From assembly GCF_008033235.1 (NCBI RefSeq), contig NZ_CP042432.1, positions 2,170,001 to 2,234,000 of the forward strand: DNA of 64,000 bases. The letters run 5' to 3'. Below the pieces are notes generated by a model. It was not told the DNA's origin. It saw nothing but the letters and a program-made list of their open reading frames with translations, and made no database searches. This DNA comes from Anseongella ginsenosidimutans. Its GTDB lineage: Bacteria > Bacteroidota > Bacteroidia > Sphingobacteriales > Sphingobacteriaceae. Below, piece after piece: positions 34,436 through 57,788 of this stretch (positions are counted from its first letter, which is position 1; every line of letters begins with the position of its first letter). The position numbers were made by a program, and so were the translations under genes.

Positions 34436-34450
34436 GGGCGGCGCGACAGC

Positions 34451-34498
34451 ATTCAGGCGGCCTGCCTTCTGCCAGCGGCAAGGGCAGGCCGCCTGAAT
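34451..34498. terminator. 16-bp perfect hairpin between asd and dacB
   Basis: ATTCAGGCGGCCTGCC (34451-34466) pairs perfectly with GGCAGGCCGCCTGAAT (34483-34498). No T run follows, so it may be a weak terminator, a processing or stability element, or a site limiting dacB expression. It ends 8 bases before the dacB ATG. Confidence 0.55.
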
Positions 34499-34506
34499 TG
34501 ATACAG

Positions 34507-36240: not shown

Positions 36241-39234
36241 ATGCATCCAATGCGTTCTTTTGGGATTGGTCTTACTTTATTACTTGTGAATTACACATTT
36301 ATATGTTCGGGGTCATCCCCGGGTTCCGGTTATACCGTATCCCTTCCGTCCGACACGATTGCCCCGGCGGATACCACGGCAAGTGACAGCACGGCAAACG
36401 ATTCCCTGTCTGTCAGCGCTTTTTATGAAGCGGCTGATTTTAACAGCATTATCGAACCCGTAACGGTAGATCCTGCGGATATACTGTATCCCGGTAACTC
36501 GGTTCAGCAATTACTGAAAGGGAATGCAGCGGGATTATATGTCCAGGAAGCAAGCGGGGAACCGGGAACGGACATGAATATTTTCATACGTGGCATTTCC
36601 CGTCCGCTGCTGGAAGCCCGTGACCTGGCCGCTTCCCGTCCGCTGGTGGTGATAGACGGGATTCCGCTTATAGGAGAACATCCTTTTGCTTACGATATCC
36701 AGCAATATGATTTTAACAGGATAGGGCCGGCTACCAACCTGCTGACAAATATTGATCCCTCTAATATTAAATCCATACGCATACTTAAAGACCTTGCTTC
36801 GGCGGGTCATTACGGCCCCAGGGGAGTGAACGGGGTGGTTGAAATAGAAACAAGATCGCCGGAATCCAGGCGGCGGATCACCTTTGATTCTTACGTAGGA
36901 GTCGTGCAGAAAGACAACGTACATACGATAAACGGCGTATTTGAAAATGACTTTCGCCAGCAATTCTACGAGCGGTATGCAGGAATAACCGAGCGCCAGC
37001 GGTACCCGCTGTATTTGCAGGATTCGCTTAATTCCGCTTATTACGGCCCCTCTAACTGGAACGACCTGTATTATCGCAATTCGATGGTACACTCAATAAA
37101 CGCCAGCATTACAGGAGGGTCAGCCAGGGCCAATTTCAGGTTTGCCCTGGGAACGCAGAAAACCAATGGGATTGCCGACAATACCGGGCTGACAAGATCC
37201 GGCGCCATGTTCGCCATGAACATGCTTCCTTTTGAATGGCTGTCAGTTTCTACCATGGTCAACGCAAACAGGCTTGACAGGGATCGTAACAGGAGCCTCC
37301 GCGACCGCTTTGCAGAGATGAAATACCTGCCGGACCTGAGTCTTCCCCTGGCGCCGAATAAGGCGAATTACCAGGAATACCTGGATGAATTTTCCAAATC
37401 ATTCGATGATAACAAGAACAATATAATTGACGGCTATTTCAGGGTAGGGCTTAACTTCGGAAAGTTTAATTTCTACTCAAGGTTTTCCGTTGATTACAAC
37501 GAAGGGATAAGGGATATTTTCTACCCGGGAACGCTGCTGGAAACCAATAGCTATGTTTCGAATTATTACGGCTATAACCAGCGTATGATGGTAGATAATG
37601 TAGCGTCCTACAGCTTTGACTGGAACGGGCGCCATCATCTTGACCTGGAGGCGGGTCAATCCTACCAGGCGGACCTGCACCGGTACAATTACGCTTACGC
37701 ATACAAGGGCCCCAATGACTTTATAAAGATCAACCTGCTGCACGCTGACCCTAACCTGGGAAATTACCTGGAGCCAACCGGTTTCAGCCGCTTTATGGTA
37801 TTTAAGTTCCTTGACCGGACTGAAAGCAGGCTCATTTCCTACTATGCACGGGGAGTATATGATTTCGAAGACAAGTATTCCTTTTCCTTATTGCTGAGGA
37901 ACGACGGCTCGTCAAACGCCCAGCCTGACAGCCGCTGGTTTGTGTCACCTGTTGTTTCCGCGGCATGGAATATTAAGAATGACCTCTTAAAGACCAATGA
38001 CCGGCTGGACGAACTGAAACTTTATGCCAGCGCGGGAAGAATGGGCCGGCTGCAGCTGAACGACCGTTATGCTCAGGGGCCTCAGTACACGGTAGACATC
38101 GGGTGGACAGGAAATCCCATTGCAAGTTCCTTCAATGCTTTTCCCACACTGAACCGGCCTTACAGCCTCGGCTACGTAGGCTATGATATTCCCTGGGCAT
38201 ATACGGACATGGTCAACGTGGGCGTAAATGCTGCCATCCTGGATAACAGGCTCCGGCTTTCGCTGGAAGGATATTATAAAACCGACAACGAACTATTGAT
38301 CGGGATACCCGCTTATGCGGAATACGGTTATAACCTTGCCTACGAAAGCGGGATGAAGGTGCTTAATACAGGCGTGGATCTGAGCGTTAGTGCCAACATC
38401 CTGCAGAAGCAAAGCGGCCTGAACTGGAATACTTCCCTGAACCTGAATTATAACAAGAATGAATTGCTGGCCCTGCCGGGCGGGCTTGACGAACTGGTGG
38501 TAGGGAACAGGCTGCTGAAAGTGGGTGAATCCATTGACCAGTACTGGCTGTATCAGAACGAAGGTATTTATAATAGTGATGAAGAAGTCCCGGTGAACCC
38601 TGAAACGAATCTTCCCCTTCATTATAACGGAATTTCACTAATGGCCGGGGACCCGCGCTGGAAGGACCTGAACGGCGATTACATGATCGATAACCAGGAT
38701 AAGGAACTCACGGGGCATTCCATGCCGCTTGTTTCCGGCGGGTTTATCAATGACCTGCAATACAAGAACTGGACGCTGCACCTGCATCTCTATTTTATGC
38801 TGGGCAGGGACGCGCTGAACCAGGCGATGGCCAACCGTTTTGATTTCATTAACCGGGAAGGCAGTATTGAAATGAACTCAGTAAAAGAGATCACTTTCTG
38901 GGAAAAGCAAGGGGACTACGAACAGTACCCGGTGTACAACCCCTGGAGCCCTGTGATCCCTTACAGAACCGATCAGGATTTATTCCTGGAAGATGCATCC
39001 TTCCTGAAACTCAGGACGGTTTCCCTCGGATACGATCTTTCCAACGCGGATTGGTTCACGGAGAAGGTTCCCGGGATCAGCCGGATGTTCCTTTACTTTT
39101 CAGCAAATAACCTGTTCACCCTTACTCCCTACTCCGGCCGTGACCCCGAGCTGATTGATTACACGGGTTACGATACCGGGTACGGCTTATCTATCCCCAG
39201 GACATACACCATTGGGGTTAAAATGGATCTGTAG
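36241..39234 (+). CDS. SusC/RagA-family TonB-linked outer membrane protein (first of pair)
   Basis: A 997-residue outer-membrane transporter. A signal peptide is followed by a Thr/Asp/Ser-rich stretch (about 35-60) instead of the usual CarboxypepD_reg domain. The plug domain has VQQLLKGNAAGLYVQEASGE, the RPLVVIDGIP loop and SIRILKDLASAGHYGPRGVN, which are SusC hallmarks. The barrel ends in TIGVKMDL. It is paired with the SusD gene 15 bases downstream. SusC-SusD pairs import oligosaccharides or peptides by a lid mechanism; no enzyme in this block reveals the ligand. The missing N-terminal Ig domain is unusual. Confidence 0.93.
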   Translation: MHPMRSFGIGLTLLLVNYTFICSGSSPGSGYTVSLPSDTIAPADTTASDSTANDSLSVSAFYEAADFNSIIEPVTVDPADILYPGNSVQQLLKGNAAGLYVQEASGEPGTDMNIFIRGISRPLLEARDLAASRPLVVIDGIPLIGEHPFAYDIQQYDFNRIGPATNLLTNIDPSNIKSIRILKDLASAGHYGPRGVNGVVEIETRSPESRRRITFDSYVGVVQKDNVHTINGVFENDFRQQFYERYAGITERQRYPLYLQDSLNSAYYGPSNWNDLYYRNSMVHSINASITGGSARANFRFALGTQKTNGIADNTGLTRSGAMFAMNMLPFEWLSVSTMVNANRLDRDRNRSLRDRFAEMKYLPDLSLPLAPNKANYQEYLDEFSKSFDDNKNNIIDGYFRVGLNFGKFNFYSRFSVDYNEGIRDIFYPGTLLETNSYVSNYYGYNQRMMVDNVASYSFDWNGRHHLDLEAGQSYQADLHRYNYAYAYKGPNDFIKINLLHADPNLGNYLEPTGFSRFMVFKFLDRTESRLISYYARGVYDFEDKYSFSLLLRNDGSSNAQPDSRWFVSPVVSAAWNIKNDLLKTNDRLDELKLYASAGRMGRLQLNDRYAQGPQYTVDIGWTGNPIASSFNAFPTLNRPYSLGYVGYDIPWAYTDMVNVGVNAAILDNRLRLSLEGYYKTDNELLIGIPAYAEYGYNLAYESGMKVLNTGVDLSVSANILQKQSGLNWNTSLNLNYNKNELLALPGGLDELVVGNRLLKVGESIDQYWLYQNEGIYNSDEEVPVNPETNLPLHYNGISLMAGDPRWKDLNGDYMIDNQDKELTGHSMPLVSGGFINDLQYKNWTLHLHLYFMLGRDALNQAMANRFDFINREGSIEMNSVKEITFWEKQGDYEQYPVYNPWSPVIPYRTDQDLFLEDASFLKLRTVSLGYDLSNADWFTEKVPGISRMFLYFSANNLFTLTPYSGRDPELIDYTGYDTGYGLSIPRTYTIGVKMDL

Positions 39235-39249
39235 TTTAATGCATGCAAT

Positions 39250-39750
39250 ATGAAAGATATCAGGTATCGTATTTTATTTCCGCTTGCTGTAATACTGTTT
39301 ATAGCTAGCAGCAGCTGCACCAAAGAACTGGAAATTGATTCTACCCGCGTAGTGGGCGAGAAAAATATGTGGAATTCCCTTCAGGATACCCGGGCTGCGC
39401 TAATGGGTACTTACGGGCTTACCCGGGCGGCGCTGGCGGATCATAACGCTTACTGGCTGCACGGAGAACTGCGTATGGGAAGCTTTGAAAGCCTGCGGCG
39501 CCAGGATCTGAAGGCGGTTATTGATAATAACCTCAATGCGGCCTATCCCTTTGTGGAGGCGGCTTCCAACTGGCGGCGATTTTACGCGGTCGTAAATTCC
39601 GCTAATATTTTCCTGGAACGCGTGCATGAGGTGAAGGCAAAGGACCCGCGGTACTCAGACCAGAATATGGCCGTAGATATCGCCCAGATACGCCTGCTCA
39701 GGGCATTCGCCTACTTTTACATGGTCCGGGTGTGGGGGATGTGCCGCTGA
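39250..39750 (+). CDS. SusD/RagB-family lipoprotein, N-terminal part (frame broken)
   Basis: This 166-codon frame holds the lipoprotein signal peptide (LFIASSSC lipobox), the SusD N-terminal region KNMWNSLQDTRAALMGTYG and the TPR-like helix IAQIRLLRAFAYFYMVRVWG. It then ends prematurely at MCR. The expected SusD continuation VWGDVPLI is found in the next frame at 39732. One extra G in the G5 run at 39734-39738 joins them into a 506-residue protein of normal SusD length. See the C-terminal part for details. Confidence 0.85.
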   Translation: MKDIRYRILFPLAVILFIASSSCTKELEIDSTRVVGEKNMWNSLQDTRAALMGTYGLTRAALADHNAYWLHGELRMGSFESLRRQDLKAVIDNNLNAAYPFVEAASNWRRFYAVVNSANIFLERVHEVKAKDPRYSDQNMAVDIAQIRLLRAFAYFYMVRVWGMCR

Positions 39751-40769
39751 TCACGACTTCGCATGACGGGGAGTTTGAGAATAAACCCCGGGATAGCAAA
39801 GAAGACATCCTTGCCTTCGTAGAACAGGAACTCCTTGCCGCGGCGCGGGACCTGCCTTATCAATACAGTCAGAATGACCCTCAGCAGGCCGGAAATTATT
39901 ATAACGAAGATTCCGGGCGCTGGGCAGGCGCGCTTGCCAGGAAGCTGTCGGCTTATGCGATACTGGCTCATGTGAGCGCCTGGCAGGGTAAATATGCCGA
40001 TGCCGCCGTATATGCAAAAGTGGTACTCGATAATTATACGCGCAGCGGGCATGCTTACCTGAACACGAATACGCTGACCAATTCAAACGGGTTCTTTATG
40101 GGAAGGCAGAACAATCACCTTTTTGCACTGAACTTCCTTTTCGAGCATCTTGAACAATCCTTTACCGGGCATATCGAAGAACTTACCCTGGCGCGGCCGG
40201 TGGTAAGCAAGCTGCTCCCTGATATTTACATTCCTAAAGACACCATACTGAGCATTTTTGACGAACCCCTGGATGAGCGCTTCAGCCTGGATACGCTTAC
40301 GGGCGAACCGGCTTCCGAGCGTTATTTCTCCGCCTTCAATACAAGCGTTCCCATTTTCAGCAAGATAAAAGTGATCCGTAACGGTGTGGCCGATCCTACC
40401 TTTCGTATGTATTCCAGCGCCGTTGTATTCACCAGGCTGGAAGATATAGCCTTGCTGAGGGCAGAGGCGCTTGCCGCGCTGAACGACCCGGCCGGCGCCA
40501 TTGAATTGCTGAACAGCATCCGCGGGCTGCGCGCCCTGCCTCCCTTCGAGGAAGGGGACGGCGACCTGGTCGATGCCATTTTCAAGGAAAGAAAAAGGGA
40601 GTTGCTCGGGGAAGGCTGGCACTGGTATGACATGGTGCGCTATATGAAGATCAAGCGCAACTCGGCTGAATTCCAAAAACTGATCGATGAGGGAGGTATT
40701 TACTGGCCCATTGCCGGCTCGCTGCTCACGCAGAACCCGGAACTGGTGCAGACTCCTTACTGGAAATAA
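39732..40769 (+). CDS. SusD/RagB-family lipoprotein, C-terminal part (frame broken)
   Basis: The 345-codon frame continues the SusD protein from GDVPLITTS. It contains the helical SusD body, including LARKLSAYAILAHVSAWQGK, the C-terminal SusD signature FKERKRELLGEGWHWYDMVR and an end at NPELVQTPYWK, the expected terminus. Without the frame repair only a truncated N-terminal lipoprotein would be made, which could not form a SusCD complex. It is followed 15 bases later by the fasciclin/CBM gene. Confidence 0.85.
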   Translation: MGDVPLITTSHDGEFENKPRDSKEDILAFVEQELLAAARDLPYQYSQNDPQQAGNYYNEDSGRWAGALARKLSAYAILAHVSAWQGKYADAAVYAKVVLDNYTRSGHAYLNTNTLTNSNGFFMGRQNNHLFALNFLFEHLEQSFTGHIEELTLARPVVSKLLPDIYIPKDTILSIFDEPLDERFSLDTLTGEPASERYFSAFNTSVPIFSKIKVIRNGVADPTFRMYSSAVVFTRLEDIALLRAEALAALNDPAGAIELLNSIRGLRALPPFEEGDGDLVDAIFKERKRELLGEGWHWYDMVRYMKIKRNSAEFQKLIDEGGIYWPIAGSLLTQNPELVQTPYWK

Positions 40770-40783
40770 TTAACCCTGAATGT

Positions 40784-42388
40784 ATGTTAAACCTGAAACG
40801 CTCATTTAAACATATGCTCGCGCTGGGCCTGGCCGCTGCGCTGGCGGGAGGCTGTGCCAAAAAGGAAGGTTTTTATGATTATGAAAACGTGGAGAAGACT
40901 TTTTCCGGCACAACCTGGGAATACCTGCAGAGCAAGGAAAACGTATTTGACTCGCTGATCTATGTCGTGGAGCGTCTGGATCTTGTCGATAGCCTGAACG
41001 AAGGAAAATTTACGCTCTTTGCTCCAACCAATCAAAGCTTCATCCTGGCGCTTACCAGTATGAATAATGTGCGGAAACAGCAAGGGCGCCCACCGGTTTA
41101 CCTGTCAAATGTGAACAGTACCCAGCTGGACACCATGATCTCCAAGTACATGGTGCGTGGCATTTACCCCAGTGACAGCCTGGCATTCCAGGATGGCCGG
41201 AACCTTTTTTCGGTAAACTACGGGCTGCCTATGCATGCGGGCCTGACGGATACCGATTCCGAAGGACAGATAGACGGCGGGCCTACCATTATTACCTACA
41301 GTGATACTAAGGATCGTTTATATACCAGGGAATGGACCAGTACGCCTACCGAATCCATAGATATACGGACCTCAAACGGGATGATACATATCCTTACTTC
41401 CGATCATGTATTCGGTTTTGACGAATTCGTGTACCGTCTTGTTTTTGTGCCCGCTGTGAAAGGGCCGTTCCTGGGCGCGCCCTTTGCCATACCGGGAACG
41501 ATTGAAGCGGAAGATTTCAACAATGGAGGCCCGGGCGGCGGATACTTCGATTATGATATTAACAATAATGGCGGGCAATACCGGCAAGACGAAAGCGTGG
41601 ATATTGAGGGTGCTTCCGAAGGTACCTTTAACATCGGATGGACCGCTTCCGGAGAATGGCTGGCGTATACCATTCACGTGGAAAAAGCCGGTGATTATGT
41701 GATCCACACCCGCACGGCCAGCCCAAGTGACGGCGGACGGATCCACTACAAACTGAATGGCGAAACGATCACGGAACAAATGATCGTGCCTAATTCAGGA
41801 GGTTACCAGAACTGGGCCACGATAAGCAGCGCCCCGGTGTATCTGGAGGCCGGAGAGCATGAACTTAGCCTGCATATTGAGATTGCCGGCTTTAACCTGA
41901 ACCGGATCCACGTTTCTCCGGCGCAACTGATGCCTTTCCACGGAGAGCCGGCGGTAATCCCCGGAACGATACAGGCAGCTGATTTCGATTTCGGCGGCGA
42001 AGGTGTAGCCTATCACGATAATGATTCGGGGAATAACGGAAGGCAGTACCGGCCTGGCGAAGCTGTGGATATTGGCAACACCGGCGGCGGCGAACCCAAA
42101 GTGGGCTGGACCGGTACCGGCGAGTGGATGAATTATACGGTGAATGTCCTCGAAACCGGCGATTATACGCTTACTGTGACAGCCGCGACCCCGAACAATG
42201 ATAAGTTCTGTCACCTGGCCATGGACGGTGTGGATATAACCGGCCGTATGGATATCCCCAATACGGGAGGATATGATAATATGACGGACATTTCCGTAAC
42301 GGTTCACCTGGAAGCAGGAGAACATGTGCTGACCTTCCATACCGACAGCGACAGTTTTGACCTGAAATCATTCACCTTTAGCCGATAA
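40784..42388 (+). CDS. lipoprotein with fasciclin domain and two CBM6/malectin-like domains
   Basis: A 534-residue surface-type lipoprotein (lipobox LAGGC, Cys24). Residues about 40-225 form a fasciclin (FAS1) domain: GKFTLFAPTNQSFILAL and later NGMIHILTSDHVFGF. Two similar beta-sandwich domains follow, each starting PGTIEAEDF or PGTIQAADF and containing VDIEGASEG or VDIGNTGGGE, then GWTASGEWLAYTI or GWTGTGEWMNYTV; these match CBM6/malectin-like carbohydrate-binding modules. It is probably the glycan-binding partner of the first SusCD pair. The two modules may arise from a duplication. No catalytic residues are seen. Confidence 0.82.
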   Translation: MLNLKRSFKHMLALGLAAALAGGCAKKEGFYDYENVEKTFSGTTWEYLQSKENVFDSLIYVVERLDLVDSLNEGKFTLFAPTNQSFILALTSMNNVRKQQGRPPVYLSNVNSTQLDTMISKYMVRGIYPSDSLAFQDGRNLFSVNYGLPMHAGLTDTDSEGQIDGGPTIITYSDTKDRLYTREWTSTPTESIDIRTSNGMIHILTSDHVFGFDEFVYRLVFVPAVKGPFLGAPFAIPGTIEAEDFNNGGPGGGYFDYDINNNGGQYRQDESVDIEGASEGTFNIGWTASGEWLAYTIHVEKAGDYVIHTRTASPSDGGRIHYKLNGETITEQMIVPNSGGYQNWATISSAPVYLEAGEHELSLHIEIAGFNLNRIHVSPAQLMPFHGEPAVIPGTIQAADFDFGGEGVAYHDNDSGNNGRQYRPGEAVDIGNTGGGEPKVGWTGTGEWMNYTVNVLETGDYTLTVTAATPNNDKFCHLAMDGVDITGRMDIPNTGGYDNMTDISVTVHLEAGEHVLTFHTDSDSFDLKSFTFSR

Positions 42389-42390
42389 TT

Positions 42391-43449
42391 ATGAACTGCA
42401 GAATATTTAGTCCGAAACTGGTTTACCTGCTCGCCTTCACGCTGGGGCTTGCCGGGTGTAAAGAATGGTACCCGCTGCCGGAGGACCTGGACTACCTGAG
42501 CGACAAGGCAAATTATACCCAGCGGGTTTTTACGCCCGTCCTGGGCCGTACCACCTTGTACAGCAATATTTTTAACGGGGACAATTCCACGATCCCCATG
42601 ACCTTTCAGATAGAGAACGTGCGGTTGAGGGATGGCACACCTTCTTCCGACCTGGACCAGGTGAAGCCCGTACTTGTATGGACAGCGGCCTATACCGGGG
42701 AAGAAACTTCGCTGGAGGAAATCGAATCAAAGCGGAAGCTGGAAGAACGACGCTTGTGGGAAGTGCGGGAAAAGTCCGGCGAGCTGGCCCTGATGTCGTC
42801 GGCGGGCAATAGCCTCGTACGGCATCAGCCTGATTCCGGCTACCTGTTTGACGTACGTTTCTTCAATTCAGGCGGCGAACGGGTGATTACGGATCTGGAA
42901 CTGATCCCCTTCCGCGAAAGGCCTTACGAACCTTCCGATAAGGACCCTATTACGGGAATCCAAAGAAAAGTATGGGACGGAACCCTGGGAGACAGCGTAC
43001 TTTTTTACGTGCATCCGGGGGTATCCAATATCATTGGCGAGGACACCGACCTGCCGCTTGAAAGCGAGGACGTACGGGTTTATTTCAGGAGAACCGGCGA
43101 CGGCAATTCGCTTCGTTTCCGCTTCCTGAATAAAGATTCCGTGGAGATCAATCCTGCGTTTTTTGATATTACCCGCTGGGACAAGCTTGTGCATGGATTT
43201 AACCGCCAGATGACGGAAGAATATGTGCAATATGACATCGCTTATCCGGTGCCGCTGATCAGGATGCCCACGAATTATACCACCAGCGACGGCTCGCAGG
43301 CGCGCGTGGAGTTCGGATACGACCGCCGCGGTTTCGGGGGCTTTACCCAGGTGGGGGAGCTTTCGCTGAACTTCAATATTTTTCAGAAAGGGGATTGGGA
43401 GATCGTATTCCATTTCTTTTATGATAACCCGAAATTTCAAGATGAGTAA
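42391..43449 (+). CDS. DUF5007-like lipoprotein
   Basis: A 352-residue lipoprotein (LGLAGC lipobox) starting two bases after the previous stop. The mature start KEWYPLPEDLDYLSDKANYT, the following VFTPVLGRTTLYSNIFN segment and the C-terminal IVFHFFYDNPKFQDE resemble DUF5007 proteins that sit between tandem SusCD/fasciclin units in Sphingobacteriia. It is largely beta-strand and has no enzymatic motif. A role as an accessory subunit of the uptake complex is inferred from position only. Confidence 0.7.
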   Translation: MNCRIFSPKLVYLLAFTLGLAGCKEWYPLPEDLDYLSDKANYTQRVFTPVLGRTTLYSNIFNGDNSTIPMTFQIENVRLRDGTPSSDLDQVKPVLVWTAAYTGEETSLEEIESKRKLEERRLWEVREKSGELALMSSAGNSLVRHQPDSGYLFDVRFFNSGGERVITDLELIPFRERPYEPSDKDPITGIQRKVWDGTLGDSVLFYVHPGVSNIIGEDTDLPLESEDVRVYFRRTGDGNSLRFRFLNKDSVEINPAFFDITRWDKLVHGFNRQMTEEYVQYDIAYPVPLIRMPTNYTTSDGSQARVEFGYDRRGFGGFTQVGELSLNFNIFQKGDWEIVFHFFYDNPKFQDE

Positions 43450-43452
43450 CCT

Positions 43453-46400
43453 ATGCCTAAACCGAATAGCATGAAAACAGGAATTATTGCATGGATTGGT
43501 TTTTTGATGGCCCTGATCTTGCCGGGCACGCTCATGGCGCAGAACAAGGTGACCGTCAGCGGAACGGTAACCGATTCCGAGGCGCAGACATCGCTGCCGG
43601 GGGTAGCTATTTACGTGGACGGGGATAAGATGGAGGGGATTGGTGTCACCAACCTGGACGGCGAATATACCGTTACCGTGGATGAAGGCGCACGGCTGAT
43701 CTTCCGCCTGCTGGGATACGCGGATTTCCGTGTAACCGCCAGGGCGGGAAGGACGCGCGTGGACGTACCGTTAAAACTATCAGAGTCATCATTGGACCAG
43801 GTGGTGGTAGTCGGCTACCGGGCAAAGGCCCGCGAGCTGACCACCGGCTCCGCGGTAGTGATCAGCGGAGATGAGCTGCAGGATGTGCCTGTTTCTAACG
43901 TGGAACAGCTCCTGCAGGGGAAAGTAGCCGGCCTGAATATCCAGGTAAATACGGGCGCTCCCGGTTTCCGCGGATCAGCGGCCCTGCGGGGATTATCGGC
44001 CCTGAGCGTAACCGGACAGGGAAATGAAACCTTTCTCACACCGACTTCTCCCTTATACGTGGTGGACGGGGTGCCCATTGAGTCCGACGGTAATTTTGAA
44101 TACGGCTTCCAGACGCCCAGCCCGGGAATGAGCCCGCTGTCGCTGATTCCCCAGCAGGATATTGAAAGCGTAGAGGTGCTGAAGGATGCCCAGGCAACCG
44201 CATTATACGGTTCGCGGGGCGCCTATGGAGTAATCCTGATCACCACCCGCCGGGGCATGTCCAAGATCCCGATCGTACGTTACAACTCGAATTTCTTTTT
44301 AAATACGCCGCCCCAGCTCAGGACAACGCTGGGCGGGAAATTCGAAAGGAATACCCGCATTCAGCAAATACTGGAAAACGGATATTATCATGATATCCTG
44401 AGGATATCCACCACTCCCTTTCTTGCGGACAGCCTGAATCCCTTTTATGCAAACTCCACCGACTGGCAGGATGTGTTTTTCGGGAATTCCTTTAATCACA
44501 GCCATAATATTTCCATCAGCGGCGGCGACCCCAAGTTCAATTACAAAAGCAACCTGGGTTATTATAATGAAAAAGGGGTACAGGAAAATACCGGCTTCAG
44601 CCGATATTCCCTGAATATGAATATGGAATACCGCCCCAGCGAAAAGCTAAGGGTTTACGGAGCCTTGTTCGGTGCGATGGGAAAAAGAAGCGTGGGCAGC
44701 GGCCAGGGACTCATAAACCGGGGAGTCGCGGAGAACGCGGCTACCTCTTCGCTGATGCCGGGCCCCTCTTACTTCCTGACAACCAGCAGTATTATTTCAT
44801 CGCTGAAAACCAGGAATAACAATAGTTCCAAGAACCTGCGGGCAAATGTGGACATTAACTACCAGCTTGTCCCGGGACTGAATGTGGCTACCAGCGGAAG
44901 CTATGACTATACCTCCGACACCGAAGATACCTTTACGCCGGCGGCGGCGAATAACCAGTTTTCGGAGGTGTACGGTTTTAACGGCAGGCGATCAACGATC
45001 TATAACCGCAACACGATTTCCTATTACCGGTCCTTTAACGAAACGCATAATTTCTACGTTTCGGGATTCAATGAATTTTATATTAAAAAGTTCCAGAACA
45101 GCGCCATCCGGCAGGAGAAAACACCGAATGACCAGTTCCAGGGCCCTCTTGGGTTTGACGGCTGGTATTCGAGGGGCGGCGGTTTAACCGGCTTCCGCGA
45201 TGAACGGATCGCCTCCTTCGCCGGAACCTTCTCCTATGATTACAAGAAGAAATACGTGCTGGATTTTTCCTATCGCTGGGACGGAACTTCCCTGAGCGGC
45301 CTGGAGAACCCTTATTCAAAAAACCCGGCTATCGGGTTCAGGTGGAACTTTAACAAAGAGAAAATATTTGAAAACGCCGACTGGCTTTCTTACAGTTCTC
45401 TCCGGCTCAGCTGGGGCAAGAATATTGTTCCCACCGGCAGCCTGCTTGCGCTTTACGGAAATTATGTCATCAGGGGTACTTACAATAATAATCCCCGCAT
45501 CGGAATTGATTATAATGAACTGCCCAACCTGAACCTGCTCCCAAAGACCACGACCCAGTACAACCTGGGACTGGAACTGGGTTTCCTGGATAACCGGCTG
45601 GAGATCATGTATGATACTTATTACCGCCAGGTGGACAATGAATTCCTCTATAAATTCCTGCCGGACGTGACTGGTTTCAATACCGTGGGAACCAATGAAG
45701 CGGCCATGGCCAACTACGGTCATGAAATATCATTGACCGTAAGACCACTTCCCCCTGCGAGCAAGCTGGTTTGGAGCCTTACCTTTAACGGCGCGATGAA
45801 CAAGGATGTCCTGCTGCAGCTTCCGGATGCGGCCAGGCAGCGGATCCACGTGGATAATGTGACCGGTCAGCATATCCTGTTCCGCGTAGGGCGGAATACG
45901 CTTACCAATTTCCTGATCGACTACCAGGGCGTATATGCCAGCGATCTGGACGTGCCGGTTGACCCGCTTACGGGCCTCCGCTATTCCACTAACCGGGGAA
46001 ACAATTCCTATTTTAAAGGCGGCGACCCTATCTGGGAAGATATCAATGGGGACTATGTGCTGAATTCGCTGGACAATAAGGCTTCCGGCAACCTGCAGCC
46101 GCTGTTCACGGGAGGTATCTATTCCTATCTTTCCTATAAGAAGTTCACCCTCGCTGTGAACGCGGCCATTACCTGGAGGCGTTCCATTTTGAATAACGCG
46201 CTGGCGGAACGGCTGGCTTATTTTTCAAATCCCTTTGACGCAAAAGCGCTGGTAGATATAGGGGCCATTGATTACTGGCGCCAGGAGGGTGACAACGCAG
46301 TTTATCCTTATCCTTTTGATTACACGAATTACGGTGCCAAAACACCTTTCAGGCCTGACCAGACCTTGTTCGAGGAAGATGGTTCTTACCTGAAGATCGC

Positions 46401-46611
46401 GAATGCTACCTTTTCCTACCTGTTTGACCAGAAGCTGATCAGCAGGTGGGGGATCCGTTCGCTGCGCCTGTATCTTTCGGCAAACAATATAATTACCTTC
46501 TCCAGGTACAGCGGGCCAAACCCTGAAAACGTGTCGGCGGTTGGCCGTGACATGTCAGCAGGGTACCCGGTGCCGAGGACGTATAATGTGGGGATAGATG
46601 TTGAATTTTAA
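43453..46611 (+). CDS. SusC/RagA-family TonB-linked outer membrane protein (second of pair)
   Basis: A 1052-residue transporter with full SusC architecture. A signal peptide ends near LMAQN; a CarboxypepD_reg domain follows (VTVSGTVTDSEAQTSLPGVA); the TonB box region is LDQVVVVGYR; the plug has VEQLLQGKVAGLNIQVNTGA and VEVLKDAQATALYGSRGAYG; the barrel ends TYNVGIDVEF. The start could be the first ATG at 43453 or the internal ATG at 43480. The stop overlaps the SusD start by one base. It is only moderately similar to the first SusC, so the two pairs are not a recent duplication. Confidence 0.94.
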   Translation: MPKPNSMKTGIIAWIGFLMALILPGTLMAQNKVTVSGTVTDSEAQTSLPGVAIYVDGDKMEGIGVTNLDGEYTVTVDEGARLIFRLLGYADFRVTARAGRTRVDVPLKLSESSLDQVVVVGYRAKARELTTGSAVVISGDELQDVPVSNVEQLLQGKVAGLNIQVNTGAPGFRGSAALRGLSALSVTGQGNETFLTPTSPLYVVDGVPIESDGNFEYGFQTPSPGMSPLSLIPQQDIESVEVLKDAQATALYGSRGAYGVILITTRRGMSKIPIVRYNSNFFLNTPPQLRTTLGGKFERNTRIQQILENGYYHDILRISTTPFLADSLNPFYANSTDWQDVFFGNSFNHSHNISISGGDPKFNYKSNLGYYNEKGVQENTGFSRYSLNMNMEYRPSEKLRVYGALFGAMGKRSVGSGQGLINRGVAENAATSSLMPGPSYFLTTSSIISSLKTRNNNSSKNLRANVDINYQLVPGLNVATSGSYDYTSDTEDTFTPAAANNQFSEVYGFNGRRSTIYNRNTISYYRSFNETHNFYVSGFNEFYIKKFQNSAIRQEKTPNDQFQGPLGFDGWYSRGGGLTGFRDERIASFAGTFSYDYKKKYVLDFSYRWDGTSLSGLENPYSKNPAIGFRWNFNKEKIFENADWLSYSSLRLSWGKNIVPTGSLLALYGNYVIRGTYNNNPRIGIDYNELPNLNLLPKTTTQYNLGLELGFLDNRLEIMYDTYYRQVDNEFLYKFLPDVTGFNTVGTNEAAMANYGHEISLTVRPLPPASKLVWSLTFNGAMNKDVLLQLPDAARQRIHVDNVTGQHILFRVGRNTLTNFLIDYQGVYASDLDVPVDPLTGLRYSTNRGNNSYFKGGDPIWEDINGDYVLNSLDNKASGNLQPLFTGGIYSYLSYKKFTLAVNAAITWRRSILNNALAERLAYFSNPFDAKALVDIGAIDYWRQEGDNAVYPYPFDYTNYGAKTPFRPDQTLFEEDGSYLKIANATFSYLFDQKLISRWGIRSLRLYLSANNIITFSRYSGPNPENVSAVGRDMSAGYPVPRTYNVGIDVEF

Positions 46612-48914
46612 TGATAGCAGCAATGAAAAAGTCTAAGTATATGATTTGCCTGCTGCTGGCCTTTGCCGCGGCCGGGCAGTACGGATGCAAGGAGTTCCTG
46701 GATGTGAAGCCGGTAGACAAGCTGACAGGAAATAATTTCTGGAAATCCCGGCAGGACGTGGAATCCTATATCTGGGATATTCATGGATTGTTCCGCGCCA
46801 AGATAGGCTCCACGCCTTTCTTGCCGGCTTCCGGGGATATCCGCTGCGGCATGATGGCTGAGACCCCGCAGATGGGGAACGGCCGTGATTATTTTGACCG
46901 CCTGGCGGCGAACGACCTGATGTATGCCTGCTACCCGACCGGGGGAGAATGGTGGCAGGCAACCTTTCATTTCGAGTACATTACCCGCTGGAAGGAATTC
47001 TACCAGGTGATCCAGGCCTGTAATATCCTGGATTATGAATTGGATAACCGCGAGGTGCCGGACCTTAGCGAAGCGGATATTAAAAGGTTCAAAGCCGAAG
47101 GGGCCTTTATGCGGTCGCTGAGTTATTTTTTCATCGTACGCTTATTCGGAGATGTGCCCTATTACCGGGAAGCCTACCAGCAGGATCCCCTGCCGCGGAC
47201 GGATATGATCACGGTGCTTAATAACTGTATAGAGGACCTGATGGCTGTGAAGAATGATCTCCCCTGGACCTTTGAAGATCCCGCCTACCAGGGCGTCCGG
47301 GTATCCCGGGGAAGCGCGCTGGCCCTGCTGATGCATATGAATATGTGGAATGCGGGCTTTGATCAGGGAAATAAGCAACATTATTACCGGCAAACTGCAG
47401 ACCTGGGCAAGGAACTGGTGGAAAGCGATGCCTACGAGCTGATGCCCATTGAAGACTTCCATCTTTTGTTCAAAGGAAGAACAAGAGAAGGCCTTTATGA
47501 AATCGCCCAGAATTTCAACTACGGGGAACTGGTGGGATATAATACATTTGCAGACATGGTGCTGCATTATCCGTATAAGCGGCCCGCCATTTCCCACCAG
47601 TACAGTTACAGTTATTTTCGTTCCGATTTCCTGCAGCGGCTTTATCCGCCCAGCCAGGCCGATGAGCGTACCGAAGTCTGGTTTGATAGCGGCATGTTCT
47701 CCGACGACGGAACCTTCCAGTTCCTGAAATTTACCAACGTTTACGCCATTGAAGATGGCGAAGACGTAAACCCGGACGGAAATATTATCATCTTCAGGTA
47801 TGCCGGCGCTATTTTGCTGAGGGCGGAAGCCCTGGCGGAACTTGGCGAAGAAAATGAGGCCATCCGTATGATGAACCTGGTCCGGCAGAGGGCCGGCGCC
47901 TCCAATTATAATGGTTCCGGCGGGCAGGCCCTCAAAGACGAAATATTTGCAGAAAGGGCACGGGAACTAATGGGAGAAGGGCATTATTTTTATGACCTGG
48001 TTCGTACCCGCCGGGTACTTGATTCCCGCTGGAGTTTTTACCCGCTTACCGAAGACCAGTTCAATCGCGGAGGATGGACCTGGCCCCTGGATCCTGCCGT
48101 TCAGAACAATAACCCGCTTATGACCCTCAATACTTACTGGCTGGGGGCGGACAGTAAGCCTTTACCAAAAAAATGTGCAATGAACAGATACAATAAGCAT
48201 TTGAAACGGACAGCCTGGCTGCTTTCAGGATTGATTCTCCTGGCCGCATCCTGTTCCAAAGATGAATATTATATGGATGGCGGCGTGTCGGACCCGCGGT
48301 TTGAGGGAAGCATTATCGAATACCTCGATTCCCAGCCCTTTCATTTTGATACCCTGGCCACTATTGTGCGGCTGGCAGGGCTGGAAGATGAATTTACCAA
48401 TGATTCGCTTACCTTTTTCGCGCCGACGGATAATACCATAAAGAATACGGTGGAAATCCTCAATGATCTCCTGTATTCGGGCGGGAAGGATACCATTAAA
48501 ACGCTTAACCAGGTGGACACCCTTTTATGGCGCAAGTATCTTTCGCGCTACCTGTTCGAAGGAGTCTTTGAATTGAAAGACTATCCGCAGATTGATTTTG
48601 AGGTGAAGCAGATCTACCCGGGACAGAATTTTTATTCCTATGACGGGGATGTGATGAATGTGGGCCTGATCTACCATGACCAAAACGGCGTGCAGTACGT
48701 GGGTTACCGGCAGCTTTCCATTTCCTTTATTCCGGATGTATCCCGGCCGGAGAGCAACTGGACCACGGCCCTGGTGGCTTCGGCCAATATCAGGCCGTTA
48801 AACGGGATGGTTCATGTACTGTCCGACGATCATACCTTCCTGTTTGACATGTTCAATCTCGCCAATGAGTTATCGATCGTGATGCCGGACGCAGGATCAA
48901 CGGCTGAACAATAA
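46611..48914 (+). CDS. SusD/RagB-family lipoprotein fused in frame to a fasciclin lipoprotein (as read)
   Basis: The frame as read is 767 codons. Residues 1-515 are a SusD protein (signal peptide with lipobox GQYGC, then FLDVKPVDKLTGNNFWKSRQ, the C-terminal FAERARELMGEGHYFYDLVR and NPLMTLNTYW). The rest is a second lipoprotein with its own internal signal peptide, which is impossible in one mature protein. Adding one G to the G5 run at 48143-48147 makes the SusD frame end LGGGQ-stop at 48155-48157, leaving the fasciclin gene to start at 48180. I therefore read two genes here. The start may be the ATG at 46623 (MKKSKYM). Confidence 0.8.
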   Translation: MIAAMKKSKYMICLLLAFAAAGQYGCKEFLDVKPVDKLTGNNFWKSRQDVESYIWDIHGLFRAKIGSTPFLPASGDIRCGMMAETPQMGNGRDYFDRLAANDLMYACYPTGGEWWQATFHFEYITRWKEFYQVIQACNILDYELDNREVPDLSEADIKRFKAEGAFMRSLSYFFIVRLFGDVPYYREAYQQDPLPRTDMITVLNNCIEDLMAVKNDLPWTFEDPAYQGVRVSRGSALALLMHMNMWNAGFDQGNKQHYYRQTADLGKELVESDAYELMPIEDFHLLFKGRTREGLYEIAQNFNYGELVGYNTFADMVLHYPYKRPAISHQYSYSYFRSDFLQRLYPPSQADERTEVWFDSGMFSDDGTFQFLKFTNVYAIEDGEDVNPDGNIIIFRYAGAILLRAEALAELGEENEAIRMMNLVRQRAGASNYNGSGGQALKDEIFAERARELMGEGHYFYDLVRTRRVLDSRWSFYPLTEDQFNRGGWTWPLDPAVQNNNPLMTLNTYWLGADSKPLPKKCAMNRYNKHLKRTAWLLSGLILLAASCSKDEYYMDGGVSDPRFEGSIIEYLDSQPFHFDTLATIVRLAGLEDEFTNDSLTFFAPTDNTIKNTVEILNDLLYSGGKDTIKTLNQVDTLLWRKYLSRYLFEGVFELKDYPQIDFEVKQIYPGQNFYSYDGDVMNVGLIYHDQNGVQYVGYRQLSISFIPDVSRPESNWTTALVASANIRPLNGMVHVLSDDHTFLFDMFNLANELSIVMPDAGSTAEQ
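48180..48914 (+). CDS. fasciclin-domain lipoprotein
   Basis: About 244 residues from an internal ATG within the fused frame. It begins with a lipoprotein signal peptide (RTAWLLSGLILLAASC) and contains a FAS1 domain: FTNDSLTFFAPTDNTIKNTV, then RKYLSRYLFEGVFELKDYPQ and LNGMVHVLSDDHTF. It is the counterpart of the first fasciclin protein but has no CBM modules. FAS1 domains mediate adhesion and are frequent next to SusCD pairs in this phylum. Its signal peptide is the main evidence that it is a separate gene. Confidence 0.78.
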   Translation: MNRYNKHLKRTAWLLSGLILLAASCSKDEYYMDGGVSDPRFEGSIIEYLDSQPFHFDTLATIVRLAGLEDEFTNDSLTFFAPTDNTIKNTVEILNDLLYSGGKDTIKTLNQVDTLLWRKYLSRYLFEGVFELKDYPQIDFEVKQIYPGQNFYSYDGDVMNVGLIYHDQNGVQYVGYRQLSISFIPDVSRPESNWTTALVASANIRPLNGMVHVLSDDHTFLFDMFNLANELSIVMPDAGSTAEQ

Positions 48915-48929
48915 ACCGCAAATAATCCA

Positions 48930-50513
48930 ATGATGAAAAAGACATACCTATTCCTTCTGGCGGCAATGACCCTTTTTGCAGGTTGCCAGGAAAAGGATGA
49001 AATATTTGAAGACCCTTACGCGGGCGGAAAGGAAGCGCTTGGCATTAAAATGGATCCTAACGTCCCCGCTTCGCCGGTAGGCGGACTGCCCGGAACAGAG
49101 GTTACCATCAGGGCGGCAGGCCTGGTTCCTTATAAGGATCAGCTGGAGTTTGCTTTCAACGGAACTCCGGCGGAAGTGCTGGAGGTTAGCGAAACGCAGA
49201 TAAAGGTCAAAGTTCCTTCATTTGCCAGTACGGGTGTGGTTTCGGTGTCTATCGGCAACCAGGTGTTCTTCGGGCCTAAGTTCACGGTACGGGGAAAGAT
49301 CAATATTGACCCTTCCTTCCGGGCGGTAGCCGGCACAGACGGAGGCATTAACCAGGTGCTTCCCCTGGTGGACGGGCGCTACCTGATCCTGGGAAATTTC
49401 ACGAATTACGATAACAAGGGCGTAGTGAAGAAGCTCAACCGGATCGTGATGACCACGAAGGACGGGGACCTGGATCGCTCGCCGCGGTTTGGAGAAGCTG
49501 CAAACGGCCAGCTGACCAGCGCGGTGCAGGCTTCGAACAAATTTGTGATTGCCGGCGGTTTCTCCGGCTTTGACGAACAGACAGGCAAGATCAGTAATAT
49601 CACCCGCCTGAACAACAACGGCACCATAGACACCATGTCAGTTACCACTTATACTGACTCCCTGATATGGGTGCCGGTTTTCAACGGCGGGACGGACCAG
49701 GGAATCAACGAGCTTTTCCTGCAGGGGGATAAGATCATCGGGGTGGGTAACTTCAGGTACCATGTAAGCCGCATTTACGATCAGCCGACCTATGACCTGG
49801 AAGCAGACAGCATTATACTTGACAGCGTGGAAATGAGGCAGGTGGTCCGTTTTAACATGGACGGTTCCCTGGATAAGACCTACCACTTTGATGATTCCAA
49901 AGAAATGGGTTTCCGGGCGGCCAACGGCCCTGTGCGGGACTCTTATATGGATGAAGAAGGCCGGCTGATACTGGTAGGTAACTTTACCACCTTTGACGGT
50001 GAACCGGCCGGGTCCATTGTCCGGCTGACGGCTGACGGTAAACTGGATGAAAGTTTCCAGGCCGGATCAGGAACCTCGGAAGCTATTTCATCCATTACCT
50101 ATAATGAACAAACGGAGAAATATCTGATAACAGGGAATTTCAGGAGCTACAACGGTACGGCTGTTTCCGGTATGGCGCTGCTGAACAAGGACGGGAGCCT
50201 GGATGCCTCCTTCCAGCCGGGAGAAATTGGCGGAGGTTATGTTTATTATGCCAAGCAATTGTCAGACGGAATGATCATTGCCAGCGGAGGATTCCAGGAG
50301 TATAACAAGGTACGAAGAAATGGTTTCATGATACTGGATAAGACGGGGAAGTTAATGGAAGGCTATAATTCCACCGGGCCGCTTAACGGCAGCCTGACAG
50401 GCGTTTTGGAAACCGAGGCCGGATCCGGCGAAAGGGCGCTGCTCCTGACCGGGTACTTCTACTATTTCGACGACAGGCAGGTAAATAATATTATCAGGGT
50501 CACATTGGATTGA
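48930..50513 (+). CDS. lipoprotein with IPT/TIG domain and delta-60-like repeats
   Basis: A 527-residue lipoprotein (lipobox LFAGC). Residues about 45-115 form an IPT/TIG Ig-like domain (GGLPGTEVTIRAAGLVP and VKVPSFASTGVVSVSIGN). The rest contains repeats of the delta-60 type: DGRYLILGNFTNYDN, EEGRLILVGNFTTFDGEP, TEKYLITGNFRSYNGT and DGMIIASGGFQEYN, each followed by a L(D)xSF-like segment, suggesting a beta-propeller of six or seven blades. TIG and propeller repeats commonly bind glycans at the surface. It lies between the fasciclin gene and the phosphatase-like gene, likely as a complex member. Confidence 0.8.
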   Translation: MMKKTYLFLLAAMTLFAGCQEKDEIFEDPYAGGKEALGIKMDPNVPASPVGGLPGTEVTIRAAGLVPYKDQLEFAFNGTPAEVLEVSETQIKVKVPSFASTGVVSVSIGNQVFFGPKFTVRGKINIDPSFRAVAGTDGGINQVLPLVDGRYLILGNFTNYDNKGVVKKLNRIVMTTKDGDLDRSPRFGEAANGQLTSAVQASNKFVIAGGFSGFDEQTGKISNITRLNNNGTIDTMSVTTYTDSLIWVPVFNGGTDQGINELFLQGDKIIGVGNFRYHVSRIYDQPTYDLEADSIILDSVEMRQVVRFNMDGSLDKTYHFDDSKEMGFRAANGPVRDSYMDEEGRLILVGNFTTFDGEPAGSIVRLTADGKLDESFQAGSGTSEAISSITYNEQTEKYLITGNFRSYNGTAVSGMALLNKDGSLDASFQPGEIGGGYVYYAKQLSDGMIIASGGFQEYNKVRRNGFMILDKTGKLMEGYNSTGPLNGSLTGVLETEAGSGERALLLTGYFYYFDDRQVNNIIRVTLD

Positions 50514-50538
50514 ACCGGGGATTTATAATCATAAGCGC

Positions 50539-52251
50539 ATGAAATACGTATTAATATGTTTGGCATTGCTGGGAGTACTGGTTGCCTGCAATGAAGGTTT
50601 TGAAAGGGTTCTTCCCGAAAGAGATTATACCGACACCACCAGCGCAATAGGAAAGCGCGCCAAGGTCCTTTACTTGATCGTTGACGGAGCCCGCGGACAG
50701 TCGGTCCGTTCGGCAGGCGCGGAAAATCTGCAATCTCTGCTTGACCACTCCATTTATTCCTTTAATTCGCTGAGCGATACGCTTGCGCTGAACGGAACTA
50801 CCTGGGCCGGCATGCTCACCGGGGTTCCCAAGGAGAAGCATGGCGTGCTGGACAATAATTTTACTTCGGACAGCCTGGATAAATACCCTGTGGTGTTTGA
50901 ACGGATCAAAGCGGCTTCCCCGGAGCGAAGAATAGCTGCATTTTCCACTTCAACGGCTTTCAAGAATAACCTGACAGACGGCGCGGACGTAAAAGAAGCC
51001 TTTTCAACGGACGAAGCCGTGAAAGATGCTGTTATTGAAGAGCTGGGGATGGACACCGCCTCGGTGGTGCTGGGGCAGTTCAGCCTGGTAGACGCCGCAG
51101 GCGCACAGTTCGGCTATGATGTTTCCGTGCCGCAGTACAAGGAGGCCATCCTGCAGTTTGACGAATACCTTGGCGAGATACTGACGGCCTTGAGAGCCCG
51201 GGAAGACTATGCGCAGGAAGACTGGCTGGTAGTAATTACCTCTAACCGCGGCGGTGACTTTCCCATTGATCCTTCGGAGGACGACAATACCATTTTCAGC
51301 GAACCGGCCGTCAATACCTTTGTGGTGCTGTACAACCCGGATTATCAGCCGACGTTAGTGGGAAAACCTTATACGGGTAACCGCTATGTGGGCGATTTTG
51401 TCCGGCTGAGAGGACAGGATGCCGGAGCCATTAACGCGATTGTGCCGGATGACCGCGGTTTGTATGATTTCGGCGATACGGTTGAATTCACGGTGGAGCT
51501 GAAGGTGAAAGTGATGCCCGGGAACCAGGGGAATTACCGCTATGCCTACCCTTCCATCCTGGCCAAGCGCGCTTCGTTCAATCCCGGGCAAGTTGGCTGG
51601 CTGATCTTCCTGGAACAGGATTACTGGATGATTAATTTCGGCCAGACAGGCAAAGGCAACCAACAGGTGAGGGGAACGCCTATCAGCGACGGCACCTGGC
51701 ACAGCATTGCGGCGGTGGTTCTTAACCGGGAGATCAGCGGTGTAAAAAGACGCGTGGTGCGCACCTTTACCGACGGGGTCTTTAATAACGAAATGATCCT
51801 GCCCGCCGACTGGGGCAATATTAATACTTCGGCCCCCTTAACGATGGGCTTTTTGCCGGGCTCCATTTCACAGGGGCCGGCCGATGTCTATATGGGCGAT
51901 GTCCGGATATGGCTTGCAGAGCTTCCCGACGAGATCATCAGCCAATATGCCTGCGATACCTTTGTGGATGAAAGCCATCCTTATTTCCTGTACCTGGCCG
52001 GTTACTGGCCCTGCAACGACGGCAGCGGAGGTGTATTTAAGGATTACAGCGCCGCGGAAAACGATTTTCAGTTGCAGGGCAGCTATGGCTGGGAGAATAT
52101 TAATGAGTTGATTTGCCCGCCCTCCTCCAGCGACCTGGCCGACCTTGTGCCAGGGAACCGGGATATCCCCCTGATCATTTTAAGCTGGCTAAACATTTCT
52201 TCCCGCCAGGAATGGGGCATGGACGGACGGGTATGGATTGATAATTATTAG
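50539..52251 (+). CDS. lipoprotein: degenerate alkaline-phosphatase-superfamily domain plus LamG-like domain
   Basis: A 570-residue lipoprotein (lipobox LLGVLVAC). The N-terminal part (about 40-300) is an alkaline-phosphatase/phosphodiesterase-superfamily fold: LIVDGARG with Asp49, NGTTWAGMLTG with the Thr nucleophile position (87-88) and KHGVLDNN. However the later metal ligands are altered: DxxGH reads DAAGA (185-189), and the usual SDHG reads SNRG (235-238). The C-terminal part (about 320-500) is a LamG/concanavalin-like sandwich, as in DUF4983 proteins. It is probably a binding subunit, not an active phosphatase. It is the last gene before a strong terminator. Confidence 0.78.
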   Translation: MKYVLICLALLGVLVACNEGFERVLPERDYTDTTSAIGKRAKVLYLIVDGARGQSVRSAGAENLQSLLDHSIYSFNSLSDTLALNGTTWAGMLTGVPKEKHGVLDNNFTSDSLDKYPVVFERIKAASPERRIAAFSTSTAFKNNLTDGADVKEAFSTDEAVKDAVIEELGMDTASVVLGQFSLVDAAGAQFGYDVSVPQYKEAILQFDEYLGEILTALRAREDYAQEDWLVVITSNRGGDFPIDPSEDDNTIFSEPAVNTFVVLYNPDYQPTLVGKPYTGNRYVGDFVRLRGQDAGAINAIVPDDRGLYDFGDTVEFTVELKVKVMPGNQGNYRYAYPSILAKRASFNPGQVGWLIFLEQDYWMINFGQTGKGNQQVRGTPISDGTWHSIAAVVLNREISGVKRRVVRTFTDGVFNNEMILPADWGNINTSAPLTMGFLPGSISQGPADVYMGDVRIWLAELPDEIISQYACDTFVDESHPYFLYLAGYWPCNDGSGGVFKDYSAAENDFQLQGSYGWENINELICPPSSSDLADLVPGNRDIPLIILSWLNISSRQEWGMDGRVWIDNY

Positions 52252-52263
52252 GAGTGAAAACCG

Positions 52264-52306
52264 ATGCCGTGCCAGGCTGCCTGGCACGGCATTACCGTTG
52301 TTTTTT
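52264..52306 (+). terminator. strong intrinsic terminator ending the Sus-like block
   Basis: ATGCCGTGCCAGG (52264-52276) pairs perfectly with CCTGGCACGGCAT (52280-52292) over a 3-base loop, followed after eight bases by six T residues. A new promoter starts directly after it. Confidence 0.88.
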
Positions 52307-52351: not shown

Positions 52352-52978
52352 TTGATCCTAAACAGCAGCGAAGCAGTGGATAATCATTCAGACGATGAAG
52401 CCGGTTTAGTGAGTGGCGTCATTGATGGCGATGAACGTGCCTTTGCGCGGGTTTATGAAAAATATCACCGGCACCTTTATTTTTTCGCTCTGAAGTTTGT
52501 TAAGTCGGAAGAGCTGGCCGGCGAGGTGGTACACGATGTGTTTTTAAAAGTCTGGGAGAACCGGCGAAGGCTCAATAAAGAATTATCCTTCAGAGGGTAT
52601 TTGCTGACTATCTGCAAAAATCATGTACTAAACCTGCTGAAGCGGGCCAGCATGGAAACATCCATTAAGGCGGAGATCCTCCGAAATTGTCCGCCTTCCC
52701 ACGTGGAAACGGAGGATTCTATCCATTACGAAGATTATTATCAGTTTGCGCTCCGCGCAATTGAGCAGCTGCCGCCGCAGCGGCAGCTTGTGTTCAAAAT
52801 GTGCAGGATCGAAGGGAGAAGCTATGACGAAGTTGCCGCGGCCCTTGGCATTTCGAAGGGTACCGTAAGGGACCATTTGTTCAAGGGGAGCCGCTATGTG
52901 AAAGAATACCTTTCCGTGCATGCGGGTATTACTCTTCATCTGACTAGTGTTTTCTTGCTCATGCTGCCGTACCGGTAA
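52352..52978 (+). CDS. ECF-type RNA polymerase sigma-70 factor
   Basis: A 208-residue sigma factor. Region 2 is ERAFARVYEKYHRHLYFFAL with the -10-binding VVHDVFLKVWENR; region 4 is QLPPQRQLVFKMCRIEGRSY plus the helix-turn-helix DEVAAALGISKGTVRDHLFK. The C-terminal 18 residues are hydrophobic (LHLTSVFLLMLPY), which is common in Bacteroidota ECF10-type factors. No ATG is available, so TTG at 52352 is used; an in-frame stop lies at 52337. A FecR anti-sigma and an STN-containing SusC follow, the classic transenvelope relay: ligand at SusC, signal through STN to FecR, release of sigma. It presumably drives the downstream operon. Confidence 0.9.
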   Translation: MILNSSEAVDNHSDDEAGLVSGVIDGDERAFARVYEKYHRHLYFFALKFVKSEELAGEVVHDVFLKVWENRRRLNKELSFRGYLLTICKNHVLNLLKRASMETSIKAEILRNCPPSHVETEDSIHYEDYYQFALRAIEQLPPQRQLVFKMCRIEGRSYDEVAAALGISKGTVRDHLFKGSRYVKEYLSVHAGITLHLTSVFLLMLPYR

Positions 52979-53087
52979 CTGCCGCGCCTTCTGAACAGGC
53001 CCTAGTGTTCACCACACTAAAAAATATTTTCCGGCGGAGCATGCACTTTGCCTGCGCTGATTGTATAATCAGTACAAGCAGGTCAAG

Positions 53088-54215: not shown

Positions 54216-54260
54216 AAACCTAAACATAAAGAATGCGTATGAGCGAAATACTATAAGAAA

Positions 54261-54343: not shown

Positions 54344-54389
54344 TGGCAGGAATCAACAAAACAAGTTTTATCAAAACCTATTCAAAATT

Positions 54390-57772: not shown

Positions 57773-57788
57773 TCTAAATCCTGAATCA

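Follow-up and report, generated by a model that had tools for sequence, protein, structure and literature searches.

The window analysed here is a stretch of 64,000 nucleotides from Anseongella ginsenosidimutans (contig NZ_CP042432.1, positions 2,170,001 to 2,234,000), in which genes were called from a listing of open reading frames and from Pfam scans. Between positions 36241 and 52251 it carries a unit of nine genes, called here the cassette, all on the + strand and separated by frame-to-frame gaps of at most 25 bp (Table 1). A sequence-only reading of this DNA had described about nine tightly spaced co-directional genes after frame repair, encoding two SusCD pairs, two fasciclin (FAS1) proteins, a DUF5007 protein, a TIG/propeller protein and a phosphatase-like protein; both the layout and the content were borne out by the open reading frames and Pfam. 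The nine genes would form a single transcript. The strong terminator also proposed was retained in part: the 14-pair hairpin after the last gene has the longest stem of all terminator-like matches, but such matches as a class were not more frequent than in shuffled sequences (20 observed versus 21.7 expected).

Table 1. Genes and features of the cassette in the window.
Feature	Position	Strand	Basis and remarks
SusC1, TonB-dependent channel	36241..39234	+	Pfam: Plug only, without CarbopepD_reg
SusD1 lipoprotein	39250..40769	+	Pfam; split into frames 39250-39750 and 39732-40769
FAS1a, fasciclin domain, then CBM6 and CBM35	40784..42388	+	Pfam
DUF5007 lipoprotein	42391..43449	+	Pfam; N-terminal domain SusE-like by model
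SusC2, TonB-dependent channel with CarbopepD_reg domain	43453..46611	+	Pfam
SusD2, reads in frame into FAS1b	46611..48179	+	Pfam; separate gene in relatives
FAS1b, second fasciclin lipoprotein, own lipobox	48180..48914	+	Pfam, relatives
DUF5008/TIG domain and DUF5122 propeller repeats	48930..50513	+	Pfam
Alkaline-phosphatase-superfamily fold (Phosphodiest) without active site, LamG, DUF4983	50539..52251	+	Pfam, alignment, model
Terminator-like hairpin, 14 pairs	52263..52293	+	11 bp after the last stop

Related loci were recruited from named genomes by a DUF5007 alignment alone, and the best 80 of 129 confirmed places, mainly from Pedobacter, Mucilaginibacter, Sphingobacterium, Parapedobacter and Olivibacter with some Chitinophagaceae, were compared with the window. 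All nine genes were found in the same order and on the same strand in 78 of these 80 loci, with median intergenic gaps of 4-32 bp and a maximum of 191 bp. The two incomplete loci are L122, which ends at a contig end after SusD2, and L055, where a run of N stands in place of the last gene; the last gene is cut in L089. Since many of the loci are closely related and L075, L089, L116, L126 and L127 lie on contigs that were also read separately, these counts do not represent independent events. The proposal that the cluster recurs, with DUF5007, DUF4983 and FAS1 genes beside SusCD pairs, was thereby confirmed, and the accidental gene order in related genomes that would have spoken against it was not what we observed. 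DUF5007 matches were present in 175 of 399 genomes of the window's own family (173 above the Pfam cut-off, a number of the matches being both weak and partial) and in 3 of 247 genomes of a class-wide sample, all three from the own family and one of them the window's genome. Another family contributed one genus, probably Bacteroides to judge from SGBP_B_XBD matches and gene content, in which 5 of 119 genomes had DUF5007 matches; these copies amount to two near pairs and one. Up to five DUF5007 matches per genome were seen in one genus of the own family (e.g. G420, G463, G478, G484, G490 and G644), where the cassette seems to have multiplied. No description of the cassette stood out among the open-licence literature matches listed.

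The last gene encodes the only enzyme-like member of the cassette. The AlphaFold2 model of its product (pLDDT 89.4) superimposes on SPAP (3q3q; Z 27.3, root-mean-square deviation (rmsd) 2.7 over 259 residues) and on XaNPP (7n1s; Z 27.1, rmsd 2.5 over 247 residues), and thus shares the fold of the NPP/alkaline phosphatase superfamily, whereas the active-site residues of that superfamily are gone. The active site was defined from three outgroup proteins (L049-L051), which keep all seven tested residues, and was followed in 81 aligned copies, of which 78 come from the 80 loci and the other three are those of the window, of a second cassette in the same genome and of L044 (a second-type copy). These positions read D, S, D, H, D, H and H in the outgroups, as against D, N, D, A, N, R and D in the window. 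Of the 81 copies, 80 retain the first metal Asp, 34 have the DxxGH Asp, 5 have the TDHG His and 3 have the nucleophile Ser; residues at the nucleophile position include N, D, I, E, P and S. None of the 81 has the DxxGH His, the TDHG Asp or the GHGG His. A second alignment, of 15 copies from clade B (see below) and probable Bacteroides, one of which (L044) is also among the 81, gave the same picture, with the nucleophile Ser, DxxGH His, TDHG Asp and GHGG His each in none of the 15 and the TDHG His in 8. The phosphatase-like lipoprotein of the sequence-only reading is therefore correct as to fold, although its domain has lost the active site, and the nine-gene core is enzyme-free because its sole enzyme-like member lacks an active site in 81/81 copies. 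Judged from codon comparisons, the last gene is under purifying selection and is not decaying: its dN/dS was 0.02-0.09 in 12 pairs, and the other eight genes gave 0.00-0.10 except for one value of 0.29 at a dS of 0.03, several of the pairs having a dS above 1. A sequence-profile comparison with the PDB matched the LamG part to a sialidase A chain (E 8.6e-6), which makes a binding role for this protein plausible.

The two transporters of the cassette are not alike. In a scan of SusC N-termini covering 27 cassettes (26 of the 80 loci and the window), CarbopepD_reg was detected in SusC1 in none of the 27, where only Plug was present as in the window, and CarbopepD_reg_2 in SusC2 in all 27, so that the members of each of the 27 pairs differ in N-terminal make-up. 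The FAS1 domain was recognised in 76 of 81 FAS1a proteins. Their C-terminal module is variable: F5/8-C in 53 of the 81 and CBM6 in 10, with tandem CBM6/35 (carbohydrate-binding) modules in the window and L055, and no module recognised at the C-terminus of the L069 protein. The CBM modules of the window match those of enzymes acting on plant polysaccharides and glucans in the PDB. The DUF5007 protein gave no PDB sequence match, and Foldseek returned nothing at E <= 0.001. The N-terminal domain of its model nevertheless resembles 4ak1, the SusE-like surface glycan-binding protein (SGBP) BT4661, at Z 10.0 (97 residues, rmsd 2.3); this likeness in fold is moderate, as the next best Z was 8.7 and best values of 7-8 are common for models without a clear match. 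The remainder of the DUF5007 model had no clear structural match.

A FastTree phylogeny of SusC2 (85 rows) separated two clades. In clade A (68 rows), FAS1a has an exchangeable glycan-binding module and, among the named loci, a length of 363-742 aa, whereas clade B (17 rows) has a bare FAS1 domain, the FAS1a proteins measuring 224-266 aa in 14 named loci and 261-274 aa in three probable Bacteroides rows. The window falls in clade A, a placement that is unsure owing to its long branch at the base of this clade. The flanks were surveyed over 20 kb on either side of 20 loci (15 clade A, 5 clade B), one per genome from 20 of 28 genomes that hold 42 full-length DUF5007 matches. Genes were counted as contiguous when on the same strand with gaps of up to 400 bp, and enzymes were tallied on the 3' side, where Pfam labels were obtained for chosen genes; the GtaA type of L140 and four of the five M60 peptidases were labelled by cluster, M60 also by its HExxH motif.

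Directly after the cassette, 14 of the 15 clade A loci carry one or more lipoproteins of a single cluster, the flank of the fifteenth (L135) beginning too late; the genes just 3' of the cassette in L033, L035, L037 and L040 match F5/8-C, PA14, DUF5013 and PKD. In clade B, each of the 9 rows that were read on the 3' side has an M60 protein after the cassette, and in 8 of them a second phosphatase-fold protein follows the M60, the stretch from G746 ending inside the M60 gene. Glycosidase-type genes were contiguous in 8 of the 20 surveyed loci and M60 genes in 5, one locus having both M60 and a glycoside hydrolase of family GH2. The glycosidase types were GH95 (L135, L145 and, weakly, L137), GtaA/DUF4964 (L139 and, by cluster, L140), GH92 (L141, L151), GH43 (L145) and GH2 (L150). 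The claim that the block contains no enzyme thus holds for the nine-gene core but not for the wider family. Homologous clusters always accompanied by glycoside hydrolases, a finding that would have contradicted the sequence-only reading, were not observed either, as the contiguous 3' run has neither a glycosidase-type nor an M60 gene in L136, L138, L143, L144, L146, L147, L148 and L153. L143 has a luciferase-like monooxygenase and an S51 peptidase, L148 an MG2 protein, and L138 a GtaA-type gene slightly farther on. The enzyme part therefore varies between loci while the nine genes are constant. On the 5' side, one example is the alpha-L-arabinofuranosidase gene immediately upstream of the cassette that precedes L135. 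Matches from a genome-wide GH43 search were not used for linkage: at least one match was found in each of the 28 genomes among the matches listed, and these are scattered. Proteins of the GtaA six-hairpin/DUF5127/DUF4964 type were seen near 3 of the 15 clade A cassettes (L138:2956-5430, L139:14751-17222 and, by cluster only, L140:10090-12546).

The M60 proteins of clade B differ in their motif. HExxH is kept in all six that adjoin named clade B cassettes and absent from all four complete ones of probable Bacteroides (L184:9518-11632, G666, G674 and G722, which form two near pairs). This loss fits the M60 set of Bacteroides thetaiotaomicron, in which three of four proteins have the motif (PMC3267712); the motif-less one is not named there. 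A gene of the hybrid two-component system (HTCS) cluster lies upstream of the cassette in three of the five probable Bacteroides genomes, with a shorter piece in the fourth and a contig end in the fifth; in one of them the HTCS-type gene was checked by Pfam, and a GH43-type gene is found near the cassette.

We consider that the cassette is probably, though far from certainly, a conserved enzyme-free system with two transporters for the capture and uptake of a complex glycan or glycoconjugate. Two sets of observations weigh against this interpretation. A glycosidase-type or M60 gene is contiguous with the 3' end of the cassette in 12 of the 20 surveyed loci, which makes an enzyme-free machine hard to separate from the transport half of a polysaccharide utilisation locus (PUL). 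Moreover, a crude lipobox pattern that matches 6 of the 7 window lipoproteins matches, depending on the gene, 28/80 to 75/80 of the copies in relatives, with 28/80 for SusD2, 46/79 for the propeller protein and 50/81 for FAS1a; surface anchoring is therefore not established copy by copy. The nine genes could be read as the transport part of an ordinary PUL that is not autonomous and that, in this genome, has seen its enzymes lost or relocated. This reading, to which we give a minor but real weight, would account for the contiguous glycosidase-type and M60 genes and for the HTCS-type regulator and GH43-type gene near the cassette in a probable Bacteroides genome, but sits less well with the constancy of the nine genes across 78 of 80 loci, set against enzymes that vary and, in 8 of 20, are absent.

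An adhesive role, emphasised in the sequence-only reading, in which the FAS1 and CBM proteins would hold the cell to a surface or particle and import would be secondary, agrees with the presence of two FAS1 proteins per cassette and with the frequency of the FAS1 domain in FAS1a. We regard it as improbable: the FAS1 name is its sole basis, SusC or SusD accounts for four of the nine genes, and the two SusCD pairs argue for import. The cassette would also have a hydrolase of its own if the last protein were still an enzyme with an unusual active site, as its full superfamily fold and the near-constant first metal Asp might suggest; with three of the seven residues gone from every copy and a variable residue at the nucleophile position, this appears very unlikely.

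If the cassette is a capture and uptake system, the two SusCD pairs and the five further lipoproteins would assemble into one or two complexes. The lipoproteins would be exported to the cell surface, where the CBM or F5/8-C module of FAS1a and the LamG domain of the dead-phosphatase protein may catch the glycan. The DUF5007 protein would stand beside SusC in a SusE-like position, and the FAS1, TIG/propeller and dead-phosphatase folds might serve as scaffold, the last of these occupying the slot of the surface hydrolase in the levan utilisome (PMC7618045). SusC1D1 and SusC2D2 would then take up the ligand itself or two different types of fragment derived from it. Degradation would be left to the locus-specific 3' genes (glycosidases or the M60 peptidase) or take place elsewhere, and the latter, as the sequence-only reading had supposed, is probable for the window.

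A more specific version, which we put forward tentatively, is that of a pseudoenzyme-based utilisome, in which the dead phosphatase would present the ligand or act as a scaffold, the two unlike SusCDs would share the lipoproteins and the FAS1a module would set the specificity. In probable Bacteroides the M60 protein would have been converted likewise; the change from enzyme to binding part would thus have happened repeatedly, since the M60 proteins there also lack their motif.

The levan/dextran utilisomes of B. thetaiotaomicron offer a comparison (PMC7618045). They combine SusCD with surface lipoproteins, as the cassette does, and their SGBP has Ig-like N-terminal domains. By contrast, they have one SusCD type and an active surface glycoside hydrolase, whereas the cassette has two SusCD pairs, and its only enzyme-like fold is without active site. 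Of the features of a PUL, the cassette has SusC/SusD, in two pairs, and lacks a linked carbohydrate-active enzyme in its nine genes and in the scanned genes of the window. The cassette would belong with the PUL-type uptake systems, the conserved dead enzyme being its oddest part.

A lead to the substrate comes from PUL5 of B. thetaiotaomicron (BT0262-BT0290). In the annotation given in PMC10434189, BT0269-75 comprise SusD, hypothetical, DUF5007, SusD and DUF5124 proteins; the entries for BT0277-79 are a carbohydrate-binding protein, a member of the alkaline phosphatase family and another hypothetical protein. An HTCS (BT0267) and a susC gene (BT0268) are given in PMC6874557. BT0262-90 is listed as an arabinogalactan PUL in PMC3243724, and BT0268 appears as an arabinogalactan PUL gene induced by arabinogalactan in PMC5061871 and PMC6874557. 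Compared by annotation only, this order fits the clade B cassette of probable Bacteroides, and the arabinogalactan PUL of B. thetaiotaomicron looks like a clade B copy. The name of this PUL is said to come from Cartmell et al. 2018. The window, by contrast, belongs to clade A, has CBM modules on FAS1a, and is without M60, second phosphatase-fold gene or adjacent HTCS. This analogy makes arabinogalactan a good lead as far as clade B is concerned, but a weak one in the case of the window. BT2818-BT2826 was also considered as the B. thetaiotaomicron counterpart and was dropped, as a published table lists BACON and chitinase genes there.

If our interpretation is correct, some complex glycans enter Bacteroidota through a fixed enzyme-free surface machine accompanied by varying degradative genes, and predictions of PUL substrates should then draw on the binding module instead of relying solely on linked enzymes. 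It would also place DUF5007, DUF5008 and DUF4983 as parts of one machine and open to direct test what a conserved dead phosphatase does in a nutrient importer.

Two sites in the cassette of the window required a closer look at their reading frames. SusD1 is broken into two frames, and SusD2 and FAS1b share a single 767-aa frame (46611-48914), in which the fasciclin match of FAS1b is slightly below the Pfam cut-off (21.7 versus 22 bits). Both the SusD1 break and the SusD2-FAS1b junction lie at a run of five G. SusD1 is unbroken in all 80 related loci and SusD2-FAS1b is fused in none of them. Because these anomalies are absent from relatives and a SusC gene outside the unit also appears split (54390-54824, with the STN domain, and 54791-57772), sequencing errors are the likeliest cause. 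The SusD2-FAS1b fusion was accordingly rejected as a new architecture, its junction falling at the G run before the second lipobox.

A second copy of the cassette is present in the same genome, at about G000:C1:4190891-4206465 (L033, L034). Its FAS1b is apparently disrupted, as no FAS1b gene frame but one open frame of 162 aa was found, and neither glycosidase nor regulator was detected among the part of its neighbours that was scanned. Around the cassette in the window, no glycosidase, lyase or M60 gene was found among the genes scanned, at 25248-35919 and 52352-63998 (positions 1-25247 being outside the scan). From 25248 onward, the region upstream of the unit was assigned by Pfam to general metabolism genes, a lamin-tail/CHU_C protein and an S13 carboxypeptidase; the lamin-tail protein (31030-33351, - strand) is 773 aa long and, besides its lamin-tail domains, gives a weak match to the CHU_C type IX secretion signal. 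The regulator nearest to the cassette is an extracytoplasmic function (ECF) sigma/FecR pair at 52352-54215, past the hairpin and ahead of another SusCD unit. This separate ECF sigma/FecR-SusCD unit spans 52352-62830 together with two FAD_oxidored (PF12831) genes, and is followed by a CstA-like gene.

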